51,271 nt of DNA from a virus. Positions 5,248-35,754 of the stretch are shown here, one piece after another. The notes under the pieces were generated by a model that was not told the DNA's origin, searched no databases, and was given only the letters and a program-made list of their open reading frames with translations. The stretch's first letter is position 1, and every line of letters begins with the position of its first letter. The stretch is taken from the IMG/VR virus record IMGVR_UViG_3300042325_000241, positions 1 through 51,271 of that record, one strand, 5' to 3'. Made by a program: the position numbers and the translations under genes.

Positions 5248-7779
5248 TTAAAACCCCAGTTCGGTGTAGTAGTTAATCTCTAGGTGCGTCTTTTCAAAGC
5301 TTGGTGCACTGTGTGTGGGAATACCCGTGATCATACTAGGGAAGGATTGCACATTCCCTTGGGGCATCATTAGTGCGGGTATGTTCTGTGGTGAAGTAGG
5401 TTTAGGTTCTTTTTCCCCAGTCTCAACCTTTTTAGGAGGTGGTTCCTCGACTTGCTTTAGTTTAGTTTGAGTTTCTGTTTCAGTCTCTGTGTGAGGACCT
5501 TCTGACTTCTTATTCTCTGTTTCGGTCTTGCTAGTGGTATCTTCTTTAGGCTTAGGTTCTGGTTTAGGAATAGGGTCTGGTACTGGCACAGGCGGTACTG
5601 GTTCTGGTACTGGATCTACCCTTCTATCAGGTACTGTAGGTTTAGGGTGTACCCTTCTTGCAGGTTTAGGTGTTGTTGGTATGGTTGGTACAAATGGATT
5701 GGGTTCACTAGGTTCTGGTTCTTTAAATGGGTTTGGAACCTTTGGGGTCGGTTTATAACGGTTAGGGTTTGTTGGTGGAGGCTTTCTATGAGGGTTGGGA
5801 ACTGGTGGAACTTTAACCGGATCTGGTAGTGGTTTAGGCTCAACAGGTTTAGGTTCTTTTTCCTTGTCTTCTTTTTCCTTCCGCTCTTTTCTTTCCTTCT
5901 TCTCTTTCTTTATGCGTTCGTATGCATCTTTTTTAGGATTAGGAGCAGGTTCTACTGGAGTAGGTTTAACTGGAGTAGGTTCTACTGGGTCTACTGGTTT
6001 AGGTGGTACTTTAGCAGGTGGTGTTTTAACAGGGGGTGGATCTTTTTTTAACCACTTGTGCACTTGGGTTAGGAAGCTAGCTGCTGCAATTGCCCCACCT
6101 ATTGGACCGGGTCCACCTCGCATACCTCCAGGTGCTTCACCACCCATAATTAGCCCAGGTGCAGTTTTAGGTTCCCAATTTGGTCCATTACCTGCACGGT
6201 GTGAGTCATGGGACTCTTGGTTTACTCTAGAGTTTTGCCCCTTTATTGCATTCTTAAATATCTCTTGTGCAGGATTATCATCACCTATTAGGTTCTCACG
6301 CTCATCTAGTTTTTGTAGGTCTTCGTCCCTACCAGCTTCCAACTTAGCAATGTCTTCTTTACTCCAGTGGCTACCACCCATCTCCTCTGAGTCTTTTTCC
6401 TGTTGTTGTCTAATAGTTTTGTTAGCCTTGTCACGCAGTTCTGGGTTAGGGCTATAACCACCTAGTTTCATTAGCTGCTTGTGCAGATAGCTAGGCATTG
6501 CGCGTTGCGCTACTTCATTTTTAGAGTAGCCTTCTGCTTGGTGCATATCACCAGATGGTTTTGGGAACATTGGTTCCTTAGATGCCCTGTGCTCTTGAAC
6601 CACCTGAGCAGGTGTCTTAGGGGCTTCTACTTCTGTAGGACTAGGGCTAGGGGAAGGGCTAGGTGTATTCTCTGCGGACTCCTCAGCTTTAACCTGCTCT
6701 TTGGTTTTAACCACCTCCCCAGGTGTTAGCATGGCTAATTTTGAGTCCGTGTTCCCAAACCCAGGTACTTTTCCACCATCGTTCATCATTAGTGGTTTTG
6801 GCCCATCATCAGCCTTAACCACATTGTTTGAAACCTCAGTTAAGTATCTTTCAAAACTTTCAGGAGATGGGCTATTAGGATCTTTCTTATGATTAATTTT
6901 TAATTGATCTATTACACCTTGGAATCCTTGGACTTGAATAGGTGGTTTTTTTTGAGAACTCCCCCACTTCAACAAGGTTTTAGCATCCCCCTCAAAAGTC
7001 TTTCCCGTATCCCGGTAATAAGCTGACTTTAGGCCAGCTATGTGTGCTCCTACTTCAATAGGGTTTGAGTAGTAGTTGCTGCCTTCTGATTGTCTGTTAT
7101 CTGGGCTATTTTTTTGTAGTGACGCAGGGCCTTCAGATACTTGCCCTTCTTGAGATGTTACATTTTGTAATCCGTGGAAAAGTTCGTGTTGTAAAAGGTG
7201 GGGAACTTTGGCTACAGCGGGTTCCACAAAAACACCTGTGCCATCCCCAGGGGCAAATCCACCTACTTGTGAGTTTTTGTTACTCCCGTCTGTTACCGTT
7301 ATATTCTGACTTTCTGTTAGTTTTCTGAAGTTTGGCATGTGTCTGTAGAAGCGATCCCATATTCGCATATCTGCGCTAGGATTTTTCTTTGTTTCGTTCA
7401 TACTTATCTGTGCTTTGTTAAGCTTACCTTGCATTTCTTCCACAGGCATATTTTGGTAGGCGTTCTGAAGTGCTGTTGCATAGCTAGATGTCCCTGTTGA
7501 TCGCACATTGCCAATATCAAAATTCGGATTCCGTGTAATATTTTCGTTGTATTTTCGTCTTTGATAATTGAACATGTCCTCAGTTGCTTGCTTTTTTGCA
7601 CCGTCCACCGTTTTAAAATCTTTTGATTCTGGCGGGTATGGCACAACATCTGATGGGTATGTATGTTCACTTTTTTCCCCTTGTGTAGGGGGCGCAGGGC
7701 TAGATGGAACATTTAAGCCTAGGGGATTATCCCTAGGCTTATTGTGATCAATCGGAGTCAATTTAAAGGGTTCAGGCAT
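5248..7779 (-). CDS. Pro-rich virion protein with HExxH metallopeptidase motif
   Basis: This encodes 843 residues from the ATG at 7779, with AGAGG upstream; an earlier in-frame start overlaps the previous gene and lacks a site. Residues 198-202 read HELFH, inside KVPHLLQHELFHGLQN, with a candidate third zinc ligand at E242 in NPIEVGAHI. This matches the zincin/gluzincin pattern seen in virion-borne or host-targeted phage peptidases. About residues 600-800 are dominated by Pro, Lys and Glu (PKPVEPKP-type repeats and a KKEKKERKERKEKEDKEKE stretch). It occupies the slot after the tail-tube-like genes where siphophages carry the tape measure, yet it does not look like a long hydrophobic helical tape measure. 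Peptidase activity is inferred. Confidence 0.65.
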   Translation of the reverse strand: MPEPFKLTPIDHNKPRDNPLGLNVPSSPAPPTQGEKSEHTYPSDVVPYPPESKDFKTVDGAKKQATEDMFNYQRRKYNENITRNPNFDIGNVRSTGTSSYATALQNAYQNMPVEEMQGKLNKAQISMNETKKNPSADMRIWDRFYRHMPNFRKLTESQNITVTDGSNKNSQVGGFAPGDGTGVFVEPAVAKVPHLLQHELFHGLQNVTSQEGQVSEGPASLQKNSPDNRQSEGSNYYSNPIEVGAHIAGLKSAYYRDTGKTFEGDAKTLLKWGSSQKKPPIQVQGFQGVIDQLKINHKKDPNSPSPESFERYLTEVSNNVVKADDGPKPLMMNDGGKVPGFGNTDSKLAMLTPGEVVKTKEQVKAEESAENTPSPSPSPSPTEVEAPKTPAQVVQEHRASKEPMFPKPSGDMHQAEGYSKNEVAQRAMPSYLHKQLMKLGGYSPNPELRDKANKTIRQQQEKDSEEMGGSHWSKEDIAKLEAGRDEDLQKLDERENLIGDDNPAQEIFKNAIKGQNSRVNQESHDSHRAGNGPNWEPKTAPGLIMGGEAPGGMRGGPGPIGGAIAAASFLTQVHKWLKKDPPPVKTPPAKVPPKPVDPVEPTPVKPTPVEPAPNPKKDAYERIKKEKKERKERKEKEDKEKEPKPVEPKPLPDPVKVPPVPNPHRKPPPTNPNRYKPTPKVPNPFKEPEPSEPNPFVPTIPTTPKPARRVHPKPTVPDRRVDPVPEPVPPVPVPDPIPKPEPKPKEDTTSKTETENKKSEGPHTETETETQTKLKQVEEPPPKKVETGEKEPKPTSPQNIPALMMPQGNVQSFPSMITGIPTHSAPSFEKTHLEINYYTELGF

Positions 7780-9658: not shown

Positions 9659-10758
9659 TACGACACCACATTGGTGAACTTGAACGCAGTGATAGGTGCA
9701 ACAACTTCAATACCGTAGTCTTCTACGATACGAGCATTGATGCGCCTGTTGTCTGGATCGTCCTTCTGTTCAACAGTCATTTCTTCGTATGCGAACAGGT
9801 GCACGGTGGAGAATGAAGGCGAACCTTCAAACCCAACTAGATCACCTGGTCGTGCAAGAATCCATGCCTCGTTGTCGCCCAACACATAGTCGGTTGCTCT
9901 GGTAGCACCCTTCTTGTTGGATACTTTTACAACATCTTCGATGATGATGTCATAACCGTACAACTTGTCAGGTAAACCATATTTACCATTCATGCTGTCG
10001 GAGTCTCCACGGATCTGAGCAAGTGCCACTGGGGACTCTTTCAGGTAGGTGTGGAGTTCTTTGGAACGGCTAAGTGCATCAGCAACGGTTGGGTTGATGA
10101 TCATGCACATTTCTTTAGGACCACAAGCACCCAGGGTGTCCTTGTTGATCTTTCTAGCCACTGCATTGAGTGCCTGTTTGATAACAGGCCCTTTAGATGT
10201 GCCTTGGTTAGTGTCACCGGAGTCACCACCTATTAGAGCGGTACCACCTGTGTAGGCGTTAGAAGCAGCAATACAGCTAATGGTGGAGATATCATTGATA
10301 CCTGAACCAACTGCGCCCTGCAATTTATCCCAGACTTTAACAACTCGCGCTGTCATAGCCTGTTGAGCATTGATTGCGCTGTAGGAAGCTACGATCTTCC
10401 AATCAGCCTGATCAACTGCTTTATAGCCCAGCCTGAATGGGAACACATACCGTTGGGTATTGAAGTTCAGCCACTCAAACTTTTCATTATTCCACTCCCC
10501 GTGTGGAGCATCATTACCGTCATGCCATACATGATCTTTAAGATCACTGTAAGCAACACGACCAGCTTGTTCTGCATTAAGTTTCAGGTAGTAGCCTGAA
10601 GACTTTTTAACAGGGGTGATGGTGATATACTTGTTCAACGCAAAGTCTTTAGGATTGCGACTGAACGATACCACAAGTTGACCAGTAGCGTCAAAGCTTG
10701 GGATATATGTGTTTGTTCCTGATGGAAACTGGGCATTACCCGATACGAAATCTGCCAT
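9658..10758 (-). CDS. major capsid protein, HK97-fold type
   Basis: This encodes 366 residues from an ATG preceded by AAGGAT. It has typical capsid features: an N-terminal arm, a long central segment with AINAQQAMTARVVKVWDKLQ (spine-helix-like), a P-domain-like region with MCMIINPTVADALSRS, and a late beta-rich VLGDNEAWILARPG segment. It contains no long N-terminal scaffold domain, which agrees with a separate scaffold/protease-like gene upstream. It assembles the icosahedral shell. The neighbours (decoration-like protein before, connector after) support the call. Confidence 0.85.
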   Translation of the reverse strand: MADFVSGNAQFPSGTNTYIPSFDATGQLVVSFSRNPKDFALNKYITITPVKKSSGYYLKLNAEQAGRVAYSDLKDHVWHDGNDAPHGEWNNEKFEWLNFNTQRYVFPFRLGYKAVDQADWKIVASYSAINAQQAMTARVVKVWDKLQGAVGSGINDISTISCIAASNAYTGGTALIGGDSGDTNQGTSKGPVIKQALNAVARKINKDTLGACGPKEMCMIINPTVADALSRSKELHTYLKESPVALAQIRGDSDSMNGKYGLPDKLYGYDIIIEDVVKVSNKKGATRATDYVLGDNEAWILARPGDLVGFEGSPSFSTVHLFAYEEMTVEQKDDPDNRRINARIVEDYGIEVVAPITAFKFTNVVS

Positions 10759-19983: not shown

Positions 19984-20011
19984 AGGATAACAGTAGTAAC
20001 AATATAGTCAA
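19984..20011 (-). promoter_or_regulatory. predicted leftward promoter of virion operon
   Basis: On the minus strand, -35 TTGACT (20011-20006) is separated by 16 nt from -10 TATCCT (19989-19984), upstream of the portal start. The same -35 context, TTGACTAT, occurs at two other leftward promoters. The overlapping ATAGTC-AA-GACTAT inverted repeat (20004-20017) covers the -35 and could be an operator. Confidence 0.5.
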
Positions 20012-24306: not shown

Positions 24307-24489
24307 TTATGCACTCCTAATAGGTAATTCTTGTAAAAGTCGTTCACATTCTAAAATATCCATACCCAACTTAAAATGCTTCCTTATAGCCAGGTTATTT
24401 TGTTCAAACCTTTTCTTGTTGGCAATGTTTTTTTCCTGGCAGGTTGCAATTAGCTGCAACCTGCGCTCCCTGAATTCTGCAATAGTCAT
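24307..24489 (-). CDS. 60-aa helical protein
   Basis: AGGAG precedes the ATG at 24489. The protein is helical and charged (MTIAEFRERRLQLIATCQEK). Its overall size and style match the next gene upstream (MTIEQMQ...), so they may be distant paralogues. No function was recognised. Confidence 0.55.
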   Translation of the reverse strand: MTIAEFRERRLQLIATCQEKNIANKKRFEQNNLAIRKHFKLGMDILECERLLQELPIRSA

Positions 24490-24665
24490 TACTTGACTCC
24501 TAAAATAAAGGCAGTCCGTACATTGAAAATAGCTTGCATCTTAGCTTCGTACACCAAACGCAGGTTGATGCGCTGTTGTATATAGATTTCTTCCATCCTT
24601 AGTTGCTCAGCGCAAAGCGCACTGGTGAGGGCAATACCTTCAGCTTGCATCTGTTCAATAGTCAT
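24489..24665 (-). CDS. 58-aa helical protein
   Basis: The ATG at 24665 follows GGAG, and its stop touches the next start. It is predicted all-helical (MTIEQMQAEGIALTSALCAE). It is the first gene after the promoter at 24706-24733. Function is unknown. Confidence 0.55.
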   Translation of the reverse strand: MTIEQMQAEGIALTSALCAEQLRMEEIYIQQRINLRLVYEAKMQAIFNVRTAFILGVK

Positions 24666-24705
24666 TGTCAGCACTCCATAAAAAGTTTTTAATCAACACA
24701 CTATT

Positions 24706-24733
24706 AGTATAGTCAGTGACTATACATAGTCAA
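24706..24733 (-). promoter_or_regulatory. predicted strong leftward promoter
   Basis: On the minus strand, TTGACT (24733-24728), a 16-nt spacer and TATACT (24711-24706) match consensus in five of six bases at each element. The -35 overlaps the stop codon of the upstream RHH gene. Confidence 0.65.
24707..24725. promoter_or_regulatory. 19-bp palindromic operator inside the promoter
   Basis: GTATAGTCA-G-TGACTATAC is a perfect palindrome covering the -10 and the spacer. A bound protein would block polymerase. The adjacent RHH gene is the obvious candidate binder. Confidence 0.65.
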
Positions 24734-24900
24734 GCCTTCTTGGTAGATTTATTTATTATTTTAACTACTGCGTTTAGACTGTATCTAATCGCAGCTACTT
24801 TGGTTGTTAGTCCGTATTCTTTTTGTATCTGTTCTATTTGTGCATCATCCTGGGGGGTTAACCTGAATGTTTGCATAGGTGTAGGTTTATTTGGTTGCAT
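24730..24900 (-). CDS. ribbon-helix-helix (Arc/CopG-like) DNA-binding protein, 56 aa
   Basis: The ATG at 24900 follows AAGGAT and overlaps the previous gene by 14 nt. Residues ~9-48 (MQTFRLTPQDDAQIEQIQKE, then YGLTTKVAAIRYSL) fit the RHH pattern: a short beta strand FRLT, a helix, 'G.T....A.R..L', and a second helix. RHH proteins dimerise and bind palindromic operators. Its stop codon lies in the -35 of the next promoter, 4 bp from a perfect palindrome, which suggests a repressor controlling the genes downstream. The gene was found by reading short frames. Confidence 0.65.
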   Translation of the reverse strand: MQPNKPTPMQTFRLTPQDDAQIEQIQKEYGLTTKVAAIRYSLNAVVKIINKSTKKA

Positions 24901-25168
24901 TTAACATATCCTTAAAATGAGTGAATATAAACACTGCGCCTGTCTCTACAAACGCACCAACCATGGTACCACCCCAACCCATGTTAGTTGCAAAGTTTTT
25001 TGCTGCCTGTTCGTAGTTTTCTGCGGTTCCAAGTTCATAATCCCAATGTTCAATATTAAAGGTGTGAACATCCCCAGATTTAAAAACTTTTATCCTGGTG
25101 CCCTTGCTGTCGGTGGGGGACATGAAACGACAGCTAATGCCTGTATGGTTGCTCATTGATACTTTCAT
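24887..25168 (-). CDS. 93-aa protein of unknown function
   Basis: The ATG at 25168 is chosen because AGGAG is 8 nt upstream; an ATG two codons earlier is too close. It is alpha/beta with a glycine-rich ATNMGWGGTMVGAF segment. No family was recognised. It overlaps the RHH gene start. Confidence 0.55.
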   Translation of the reverse strand: MKVSMSNHTGISCRFMSPTDSKGTRIKVFKSGDVHTFNIEHWDYELGTAENYEQAAKNFATNMGWGGTMVGAFVETGAVFIFTHFKDMLNATK

Positions 25169-25195
25169 TGTCATAACTCCTAAAAGGTTTAAAGA

Positions 25196-25442: not shown

Positions 25443-25685
25443 TTAGCTCCTAAACATATTGGTGTTAGATAGATTCAAAGTGGGTACTAGGCCTGGTGCA
25501 TACCATGGCGTTTGGTAGGTCAGTGGCGCATCAGGATCATACGATCCGTGCAATTTTGAGTAAGCGTCCATCTGGGCATTAGCTTGCCTAATAGATAGGG
25601 TGTACACCCTGGGTGCAGGTACTGGGATTTTATCCGCAGTAGTAATGGTAAACCCGAACTTTTTAAACTGCTCGAAAAGATTCAT
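25443..25685 (-). CDS. 80-aa protein of unknown function, first gene of small-gene operon
   Basis: The ATG at 25685 follows AAAGGAGC. The sequence starts MNLFEQFKKFGFTITTADKI and the rest is Pro/Tyr-rich. It is the first gene after the promoter at 25728-25756. Confidence 0.55.
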   Translation of the reverse strand: MNLFEQFKKFGFTITTADKIPVPAPRVYTLSIRQANAQMDAYSKLHGSYDPDAPLTYQTPWYAPGLVPTLNLSNTNMFRS

Positions 25686-25702
25686 AACTTTGCTCCTTTG
25701 TA

Positions 25703-25726
25703 ACATTGTTGCGTTCTACACAATGT
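25703..25726. promoter_or_regulatory. inverted repeat ACATTGT-N10-ACAATGT downstream of the promoter
   Basis: Half-sites lie at 25703-25709 and 25720-25726, between the -10 and the first gene, where a repressor could act. Other ACATTGT copies occur by chance in a genome of this size, so this is a weak call. Confidence 0.3.
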
Positions 25727-25727
25727 A

Positions 25728-25756
25728 AAGATAGGATCGTGTATAGACATAGTCAA
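25728..25756 (-). promoter_or_regulatory. predicted leftward promoter
   Basis: On the minus strand, TTGACT (25756-25751), a 17-nt spacer and TATCTT (25733-25728) drive the small-gene block. The -35 region TTGACTATGT matches the promoter at 24706-24733. Confidence 0.55.
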
Positions 25757-33863: not shown

Positions 33864-34066
33864 TAATATTCTCCTTGAAAGTTGTCGTTGTCGTTTGGCG
33901 TATAGTCATCCTCATCCTCTGCGTAGGCATCAGATTTAGATTCTGCTTCCAGTGCATCTTCTGCACTGTCATCTTCAGATTGTTGATAATCTTTTTCGTC
34001 AGACTGATATGCATCCATATCATGGTCATCGTAGGGGTTTGGTTTTTTCCCGAATGGGTTAAACAT
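33863..34066 (-). CDS. 67-aa highly acidic protein
   Basis: AAGGAGA precedes the ATG. The composition is dominated by Asp, Glu, Ser and Tyr (KKPNPYDDHDMDAYQSDEKD), suggesting a disordered or DNA-mimic protein. It is the first gene of the replication operon. DNA mimicry is a suggestion from charge only. Confidence 0.55.
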   Translation of the reverse strand: MFNPFGKKPNPYDDHDMDAYQSDEKDYQQSEDDSAEDALEAESKSDAYAEDEDDYTPNDNDNFQGEY

Positions 34067-34265: not shown

Positions 34266-34457
34266 ATGGCTGTTAAAAAGAATGACAATGCGGATGAATC
34301 TACTACCACCATGCGTGTAAGTCGTAAAACACTGAGAATGATACAAATTATCGCAGCATGGAAGGATTTGGGTATTAGTGAGTATGTGGACCACCTGGTT
34401 AAAACCCAAGGTGCAAAGGATCTGGACGATATGAAAAAGGGTATAACTAATCTCTAG
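34266..34457 (+). CDS. small RHH/CopG-like protein, possible excisionase or regulator
   Basis: This encodes 63 residues from an ATG with AAAGGAG upstream. TTTMRVSRKTLRMIQIIAAW then GISEYVDHLV fits a ribbon-helix-helix fold: strand TTTMRVS, helix, a 'G.s..eyvd.lv' turn and second helix. It is one of three rightward units, divergent from the replication operon and 0.2 kb from attP. A role in the lysis-lysogeny decision or in excision is a reasonable inference. Confidence 0.65.
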   Translation: MAVKKNDNADESTTTMRVSRKTLRMIQIIAAWKDLGISEYVDHLVKTQGAKDLDDMKKGITNL

Positions 34458-34465
34458 TATCTAAA

Positions 34466-34501
34466 CTAACTTATAAAAGTGTTTACACTTTTATAAGTTA
34501 G
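34466..34501. repeat. 36-bp near-perfect palindrome
   Basis: The 17-bp arms CTAACTTATAAAAGTGT and ACACTTTTATAAGTTAG enclose TT. It lies 8 bp after the RHH gene. It is AT-rich and could be a terminator, an operator, or an integrase/excisionase site. Confidence 0.75.
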
Positions 34502-34520
34502 TAGTCTATTTAATAGACTA
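34502..34520. repeat. 19-bp palindrome adjoining the 36-bp one
   Basis: TAGTCTATT-T-AATAGACTA is perfect. It abuts the preceding palindrome directly. Confidence 0.6.
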
Positions 34521-34565
34521 GTGTATATAGTATATTAGTATATATAATAACAAATACCGTGCCAA

Positions 34566-34587
34566 AGTATAGTAAATCCACTATACT
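34566..34587. repeat. inverted repeat left of attP core
   Basis: AGTATAGT-AAATCC-ACTATACT. The same arms recur at 34769-34790, so the tRNA-like core lies between two copies. Confidence 0.65.
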
Positions 34588-34667
34588 ATTTAAAATAGTC
34601 CTAAAAAGCATGTTTCCCTAACTACGGAAATGTGTGTTTTCTGGGGCTTTTCGTGCGGTTGTGGTTT

Positions 34668-34710
34668 GCGCTCGTAGCTCAGGGGATAGAGCATCGGTTT
34701 CCTAAATCGA
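34668..34710 (+). other. predicted attP core: 5' half of tRNA-Arg(CCU)
   Basis: The 43 nt read as tRNA positions 1-43: acceptor GCGCTCG, TA, D-arm GCTC-AGGGGATA-GAGC, then a perfect anticodon stem TCGGT/ATCGA with loop TTCCTAA (anticodon CCT). The remaining T-arm and 3' acceptor are absent, so it is not a working tRNA. It lies 37 bp from the integrase gene end, the usual place for attP. Integration probably targets the host tRNA-Arg(CCU) gene. Confidence 0.75.
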
Positions 34711-34726
34711 GGGTTATCCTCGATTT
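34704..34726. repeat. hairpin across the tRNA-like edge
   Basis: AAATCGAGG-GTTAT-CCTCGATTT is a perfect 9-bp stem reaching from the anticodon arm into phage-specific DNA. It is followed by TAT on the plus strand. Confidence 0.6.
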
Positions 34727-34746
34727 TATCCTATAAAACAAGCACT

Positions 34747-35754
34747 TTAGGCTTTTTTGATCTTAGAAAGTATAGTAAGAACACTATACTTTTTTGTAAC
34801 ACTATCGTCTAAAACATAGTGGTCGTAGATCTTTAGGGTGGTCGTTGCGTTAGTGTGGCCCATCCTAGCGGATACCATTCTCAGGTCCGAAGTGCTCCCC
34901 AGCAGGTGTGTTGCACAGGTGTGCCTGAGGTCGTGAATACGCAGTGGTATTTTAAATCTTTTGATAAGTGGTACCCACCACCTTCGCAGGTTGTTGCGTG
35001 CTACCCTAAACCCCAGTGGACTAGTAAATATTGGGGAATTGGGAGAACCCTTTAAACGGTCCAAAATTGCCACTAGGTGATCAGATAGGGTGATAGACCT
35101 GTTTCCCCTAGAAGTCTTAACTGGGACGATTTTAGGCCCCTTCAGTTGATCGTTGTACGCTTTGTTGATATGTACCTTAGGTGCGACATAGTCGGCCCAG
35201 GTTAAACCCAGGGCCTCACCTAGTCTTGCGCCTGTGTCCAGGAGGAATAGCAGTAGTGGTTGGTAGTGGCTACCGTTGTTTAACTCAATGAGTTTAAGTG
35301 TCTGTTCGGGTGTTAGTGCTACACCCCTAGCCCTGGTGATTTTGGGTACGATGCCATAGGGTACGGGAACACCTGCAATCTTGCAGATGGTGATTAAACG
35401 CTTAATTATGCGGTGGGATTTAGAGATGGGAAACATCTTGTTTATTCTAGATACGGTAAGTTGTATATTAGTCTCTGTCATACTGTCACCAGCTAGTGCT
35501 AGACGCAGTGAGTCGATTTCTTGTTTATATCTTCTGAGGCTAGACTCGCGCACATTTCTAGATGTTAAAAACTTGGACAGTGTGTCAGAAAAGAGATGTT
35601 GTTTTTCTGACACGGAGGTCTGAGGCTTCAGGGCCTCAGCCTCCTCCCTGGTGTTGTGGTAGGATCTCACAACCTTGGAGTTTACCTTGTGCTCATACAC
35701 CCATTTGCGTTTAGCCTTGACATAAAATATTGTAGCCATATGTTGGTCATACAA
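34747..35754 (-). CDS. int: tyrosine-family integrase
   Basis: This encodes 335 residues from TTG 35754 with AAAGG 6 nt upstream; ATG 35739 is the conservative alternative. An N-terminal arm-binding-like basic region and SAM-like domain precede the catalytic domain, which shows the Arg in LLDTGARLGEALGLTW, HxxR in LRIHDLRHTCATHLL and ARMGHTNATTTLKIYDHY (His and catalytic Tyr). It recombines attP with host attB. It sits beside the tRNA-like core. Confidence 0.92.
   Translation of the reverse strand: MYDQHMATIFYVKAKRKWVYEHKVNSKVVRSYHNTREEAEALKPQTSVSEKQHLFSDTLSKFLTSRNVRESSLRRYKQEIDSLRLALAGDSMTETNIQLTVSRINKMFPISKSHRIIKRLITICKIAGVPVPYGIVPKITRARGVALTPEQTLKLIELNNGSHYQPLLLFLLDTGARLGEALGLTWADYVAPKVHINKAYNDQLKGPKIVPVKTSRGNRSITLSDHLVAILDRLKGSPNSPIFTSPLGFRVARNNLRRWWVPLIKRFKIPLRIHDLRHTCATHLLGSTSDLRMVSARMGHTNATTTLKIYDHYVLDDSVTKKYSVLTILSKIKKA
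34767..34792. repeat. inverted repeat right of attP core, inside the integrase 3' end
   Basis: AAAGTATAGT-AAGAAC-ACTATACTTT has perfect 10-bp arms; the inner 8-bp arms equal those at 34566-34587. It is also followed by a T-run on the plus strand, so terminator function is possible. Confidence 0.6.

Follow-up and report, generated by a model that had tools for sequence, protein, structure and literature searches.

A 56-residue probable ribbon-helix-helix protein and the 19-bp dyad in the promoter at the end of its gene: a candidate accessory repressor-operator pair of a viral genome

The DNA analysed here, referred to as the window, is a stretch of 51,271 nucleotides of viral origin. On a slim balance of probability, a 56-residue protein of the ribbon-helix-helix (RHH) type, encoded on its minus strand by the last gene of a small operon with promoter P2, represses an internal promoter, P1, by way of a 19-bp dyad at 24707-24725. 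The gene, the promoter and the dyad, together with their arrangement, are kept in two viral lineages, as the sequences make plain. The elements around P1 are as follows:

24730-24900, minus strand: gene of the 56-aa probable RHH DNA-binding protein, ATG start, TGA stop
24728-24733, minus strand: -35 box of P1, TTGACT, within which the RHH gene's stop codon, TGA, lies; same arrangement in the relatives L003/L004
24706-24711, minus strand: -10 box of P1, TATACT, after a spacer of 16 bp; transcription from P1 runs leftward into 24674-24307
24707-24725, no strand: perfect 19-bp palindrome (9+1+9), GTATAGTCA-G-TGACTATAC, the proposed P1 operator
24489-24674, minus strand: 61-aa gene, the first downstream of P1
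24307-24489, minus strand: 60-aa gene, the second downstream of P1; in L003/L004 the gene that comes first after P1 encodes a similar protein

The initial annotation had read the 56-aa ORF as a gene ending in the -35 box of the next promoter, and both its coordinates and this reading are right. The RHH gene and P1 share a strand, and the gene ends on the TGA within TTGACT (24733-24728). At its other end, the ATG overlaps the stop codon of the upstream 95-aa gene (ATGTTAAATGCAACCAAATAA). Between the window and the L003/L004 lineage, 13 codons differ synonymously and 9 by replacement, corresponding to a dN/dS of 0.15, a pattern that marks the ORF as a real, if small, gene subject to purifying selection.

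The assignment of the protein to the RHH class rests on several lines of evidence, each of them weak, which nevertheless converge, and we regard it as quite probable. Two homologues sharing 51% identity had no Pfam matches at E≤1 other than VapB_antitoxin (0.072 and 0.055) and the NikA-like family (0.078), both of which we take to be RHH families. The matches of the 56-aa protein all lie below the curated cut-offs (for VapB, 13.4 against a required 23.4 bits), such that no RHH family in Pfam is reached at its own threshold. The top profile match in the PDB was the antitoxin VapB11 (E 0.029), over the motif GLTTK..A. In the AlphaFold model (pLDDT 81), an extended N-terminus is followed by helices spanning residues 16-29 and 32-55, and the beta strand is not formed in the monomer; the helix layout is as an RHH monomer would be expected to look. 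A Foldseek comparison of this model with the PDB and with viral models gave no match, and neither did a scan of the genome collection with the RHH alignment. Matches of the RHH profile to planctomycete genomes were weak and partial, and were set aside; the best of them has an internal stop and overlaps other ORFs.

With VapB and NikA-like as its nearest profiles, the protein might instead be an orphan antitoxin of the VapB-like kind or an RHH protein with some auxiliary function, in either case without acting at P1; the dyad would then belong to the promoter alone. The more distant relative L157, which has the gene without P1 or the dyad, is in keeping with this. Yet among the neighbouring genes scanned in the window and in L157 there was no match to a PIN-domain or any other toxin, and we consider this explanation distinctly unlikely.

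P1 matches the sigma-70 consensus at 10 of 12 positions. As had been claimed, a perfect 19-bp palindrome (on the minus strand, GTATAGTCA-C-TGACTATAC) lies over its spacer and -10 box, covering 14 of the 16 spacer bases and five of the -10 bases; a two-fold, operator-like site thus overlaps a promoter beside the RHH gene. The full sequence occurs once in the window. Its length by itself is not significant, because shuffling of the whole window gave an expectation of 0.4 perfect palindromes of this size in 51 kb, where two were observed. The possibility that the palindrome arose by chance is nonetheless very small: when the local 200 bp were shuffled 2000 times, a perfect palindrome arose only three times (a local probability of about 0.0015), the site is placed exactly within a strong promoter, and in a relative this place still holds a dyad, with a different core. 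Apart from two dyads beside attP, described below, P1 holds the only two-fold copy of the half-site in the window and in the examined part of the relative. Single copies of the half-site TATAGTCA are found at 33901, within a coding sequence that is also present in the relative, and at 20003, which is intergenic. A relaxed form of the promoter-dyad pattern was found in 96 viral contigs, but these were mostly coding coincidences, in an apparent T4-type DNA polymerase gene (...LDLYKKFTYTN...), and only the known relatives were relevant.

The L002 viral contig is identical to the window over the RHH gene region. L003 and L004, which together represent one diverged lineage, encode an RHH protein 84% identical to that of the window; its stop again lies inside TTGACT, with a spacer of 17 bp, and the dyad is found at the same place as GTATACAC-TCG-GTGTATAC, likewise 19 bp long. 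The outer GTATA...TATAC is identical in the two lineages, whereas six of the nine inner bases differ. Of the four inner pairs, three are still complementary in L003/L004, two having changed on both sides (G-C to C-G and T-A to A-T), and one is broken in L003. The flanks of the dyad are nearly identical, with one difference in the 25 bases from the -10 box onward. Resting as they do on two lineages, these symmetric changes favour a functional dyad. The pattern would fit a two-fold protein site of altered specificity, and an RNA hairpin would be compatible with it too.

Such a hairpin would form in read-through transcripts from P2, after the stop codon of the RHH gene, where it might serve as a stabiliser, a processing site or an attenuator. 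Both lineages allow the same stem of 8 bp, capped by a loop of 3 nt, and the two compensatory pair changes would preserve it. However, the dyad coincides exactly with the spacer and -10 box of a promoter that matches consensus at 10 of 12 positions, folding is only modestly better than that of shuffled sequences (z -2.0 and -1.3), and no U-tract follows the dyad, so that it is not a standard terminator. A role as RNA is therefore judged improbable.

In L157, a 72-aa homologue that is 51% identical to the RHH protein occupies the same position in the gene order, behind P2, a homologue of the 87-aa gene and a PHROG 3199 gene. Neither P1 nor the dyad is present there, and the next gene overlaps the stop of the RHH homologue. 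As L157 keeps the gene and its neighbours without P1 or the dyad, the protein must have another role in that virus. The other relatives, which were found via the terminase, have different genes in this stretch, and no RHH homologue was detected in them by tblastn. With most relatives lacking the gene, and L157 lacking P1 and the dyad, the distribution marks the unit as accessory, its promoter-operator part being either younger or more easily lost.

The RHH gene is preceded by three small genes and their probable promoter:

25728-25756, minus strand: promoter P2, TTGACT-17-TATCTT, about 0.85 kb upstream of the RHH gene start
25443-25706, minus strand: 87-aa gene, the first of the P2 operon, with an 82% homologue in L157
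25196-25441, minus strand: 81-aa gene of the P2 operon
24887-25174, minus strand: 95-aa gene, PHROG 3199, directly upstream of the RHH gene and overlapping it; a similar neighbour in L157

P2 is conserved in all three lineages that hold this stretch (the window, L003/L004 and L157), and is most likely the promoter of a small-gene operon of which the RHH gene is the last. P1, by comparison, fires leftward from the end of the RHH gene and away from it. Hence the negative feedback that had been proposed on the basis of this layout does not operate through P1: the operator-bearing promoter of an autoregulated repressor transcribes the repressor gene, and P1 does not. Two similarities between the promoters are suggestive only of some additional control of P2, namely a 10-mer, TTGACTATGT, which they have in common and which has only these two exact copies in the window, and a one-mismatch half-site, GTATAGACA, within P2 at 25741-25749.

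The favoured mechanism, in which we infer the RHH fold as well as binding, repression and timing, is as follows. The repressor would be made leftward from P2, as the product of the last gene of an early operon, and a pair of RHH dimers would occupy the two half-sites of the dyad. Since the dyad takes up the spacer and the greater part of the -10 box, bound protein would keep RNA polymerase off P1, which would serve the genes at 24674-24307, and perhaps others beyond, only when the level of repressor is low; read-through from P2 would continue while P1 is closed. The protein may also contact the half-site in P2. Under this mechanism, it would be an accessory repressor with one operator, acting downstream of its own gene, rather than through self-feedback via P1 or as a proven repressor of lysogeny.

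The beta ribbon of RHH dimers enters the major groove of DNA, and in Arc and ArtA the N-terminal arm makes a contribution to binding (PMC3325190). The presumed beta strand, QTFRLT, is identical in the proteins of the window and of L003/L004, and most of their differences fall in the N-terminal arm (at residues 2, 5, 6, 7 and 9). A tentative extension of the mechanism, which we hold to be less than likely, is that the pair constitutes a fast-evolving private lock, in which the operator core has been re-coded symmetrically while the arm changed and the strand was kept, the arm setting the specificity. If this were true, the repressor of each virus would ignore the operator of the other. In any event, the two lineages form a natural pair in which both the operator core and the protein arm have changed, and which would offer a direct test of specificity change in RHH proteins.

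The remaining copies of the dyad motif lie near the integrase gene:

34266-34457, plus strand: 63-aa RHH-like ORF, near attP and integrase
34566-34587 and 34767-34792: inverted repeats AGTATAGT-N6-ACTATACT flanking the attP core
34665-34735: attP core resembling the 5' part of tRNA-Arg(CCT) through the anticodon loop
34747-35775: integrase gene

The integrase and the tRNA-Arg(CCT)-like attP core together indicate a temperate virus. GTATAGT-N5/6-ACTATAC occurs exactly three times in the window, once at P1 and once to either side of attP (34567-34586 and 34770-34789), and in none of 100 shuffles, from which it might be supposed that the dyad is read by another protein, either a recombination factor of the phage or a regulator of the host. 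In three related viruses, though, the dyads flanking attP are replaced by other pairs; in the virus of L003 they read CTGTACC...GGTACAG, while its P1 dyad reads GTATACAC...GTGTATAC. Furthermore, the versions of the 63-aa protein encoded near attP by the window and by the virus of L003 are 98% identical, and this protein is thus unlikely to have caused the change in the P1 core. Another reader accordingly seems a poor prospect, and a common reader for the P1 and attP dyads was set aside, as the relative shows no joint change in the two kinds of site. In two further viruses the attP dyads differ again, along with the integrase. Variation in the attP-flanking repeats seems to follow that of the integrase, whose arm-type sites they resemble; because they diverge from the P1 dyad in the relative and vary in this way, they are treated as recombination sites. 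The integrase of the virus of L003 (L123:1501-2472) has an in-frame TAG within the match.

The 63-aa ORF also bears on the suggestion that the 56-aa protein is a key regulator of the virus. Of 17 related viral records, 6 carry it; it is more widespread than the 56-aa gene and at least as good a candidate for a core regulator. It gave no family match, and no profile match to RHH proteins, the likeness consisting of a residue pattern and a low-confidence two-helix model, and profile comparison found no relation between the 56-aa and 63-aa proteins. Given this second, more widespread RHH-like ORF at the integrase, the accessory nature of the 56-aa gene and the absence of P1 and the dyad from L157, the role of key regulator is unsupported. 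Opposite the 63-aa ORF, the minus strand carries at 34465-34565 an 18-bp perfect hairpin with a 19-bp palindrome next to it, as well as a promoter of the form TTGGCA...TATACT; the hairpin and promoter recur in related attP regions and perhaps belong to a short antisense RNA.

In genomes covering 84,980 species, a 42-nt form of the attP core, as found in two related viruses, is present on only three contigs, each from Planctomycetota, and related terminases (30-36% identity) occur in three genomes of the same group. The host is therefore probably a planctomycete, and genome titles suggest a freshwater setting. The terminase region has sites of its own. A strong promoter, TTGACA-17-TATACT, stands before the large terminase gene of the window (23590-23562, minus strand); related viruses have TTGACA-18-TATAAT before theirs, with a dyad, ATACCTGATAGGTAT, over the -10 box in L009, L010 and L014. 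In the more distant relative L018, TTAGTGCACTTAGTGCACTAA (7717-7737) and TATTAGTGCACTAATA (10006-10021) flank the terminase gene and are possibly the sites of another regulator.

What was initially described as an RHH repressor gene packed with its operator and promoter into a compact switch is thus a genuine gene, of RHH type on weak but convergent evidence, whose adjoining dyad is kept in a relative with symmetric changes. The layout is real and is kept in one relative, but it does not look like a self-regulating master switch. As a regulatory circuit the unit is ordinary. Its value lies in providing a candidate repressor and operator that form a self-contained unit of very small size, from what is probably a temperate phage of planctomycetes, a host phylum in which phage regulation has been little studied.

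Comparison with known systems places the pair more closely. Like Arc and Mnt of phage P22, the 56-aa protein is a small, probably RHH-type protein of a temperate phage with a variable N-terminal arm, and its proposed operator has two half-sites and overlaps a promoter. Unlike in the P22 system, the controlled promoter lies downstream of the gene and points away from it, the gene is accessory and absent from most relatives, and the searches made detected no sequence relation to Arc or Mnt. With the VapB antitoxins (PF09957; VapB11, PDB 6a7v) it shares GLTTK..A(I/V) of the RHH core, at residues 18-46; it differs in scoring below the Pfam cut-off and in having no detected toxin partner, as the scan of neighbouring genes in the window and L157 turned up none of the PIN-domain toxin genes that stand beside vapB in VapBC systems. 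The operator of the RHH protein AmrZ is about 18 bp long with two half-sites (PMC3325190), and the 19-bp dyad resembles such operators of AmrZ- and MobC-like regulators. AmrZ and MobC both repress their own promoters, whereas the adjacent P1 is not that of the RHH gene. Seen beside these systems, the RHH protein and the P1 dyad look like an ordinary, accessory kind of phage repressor-operator pair.
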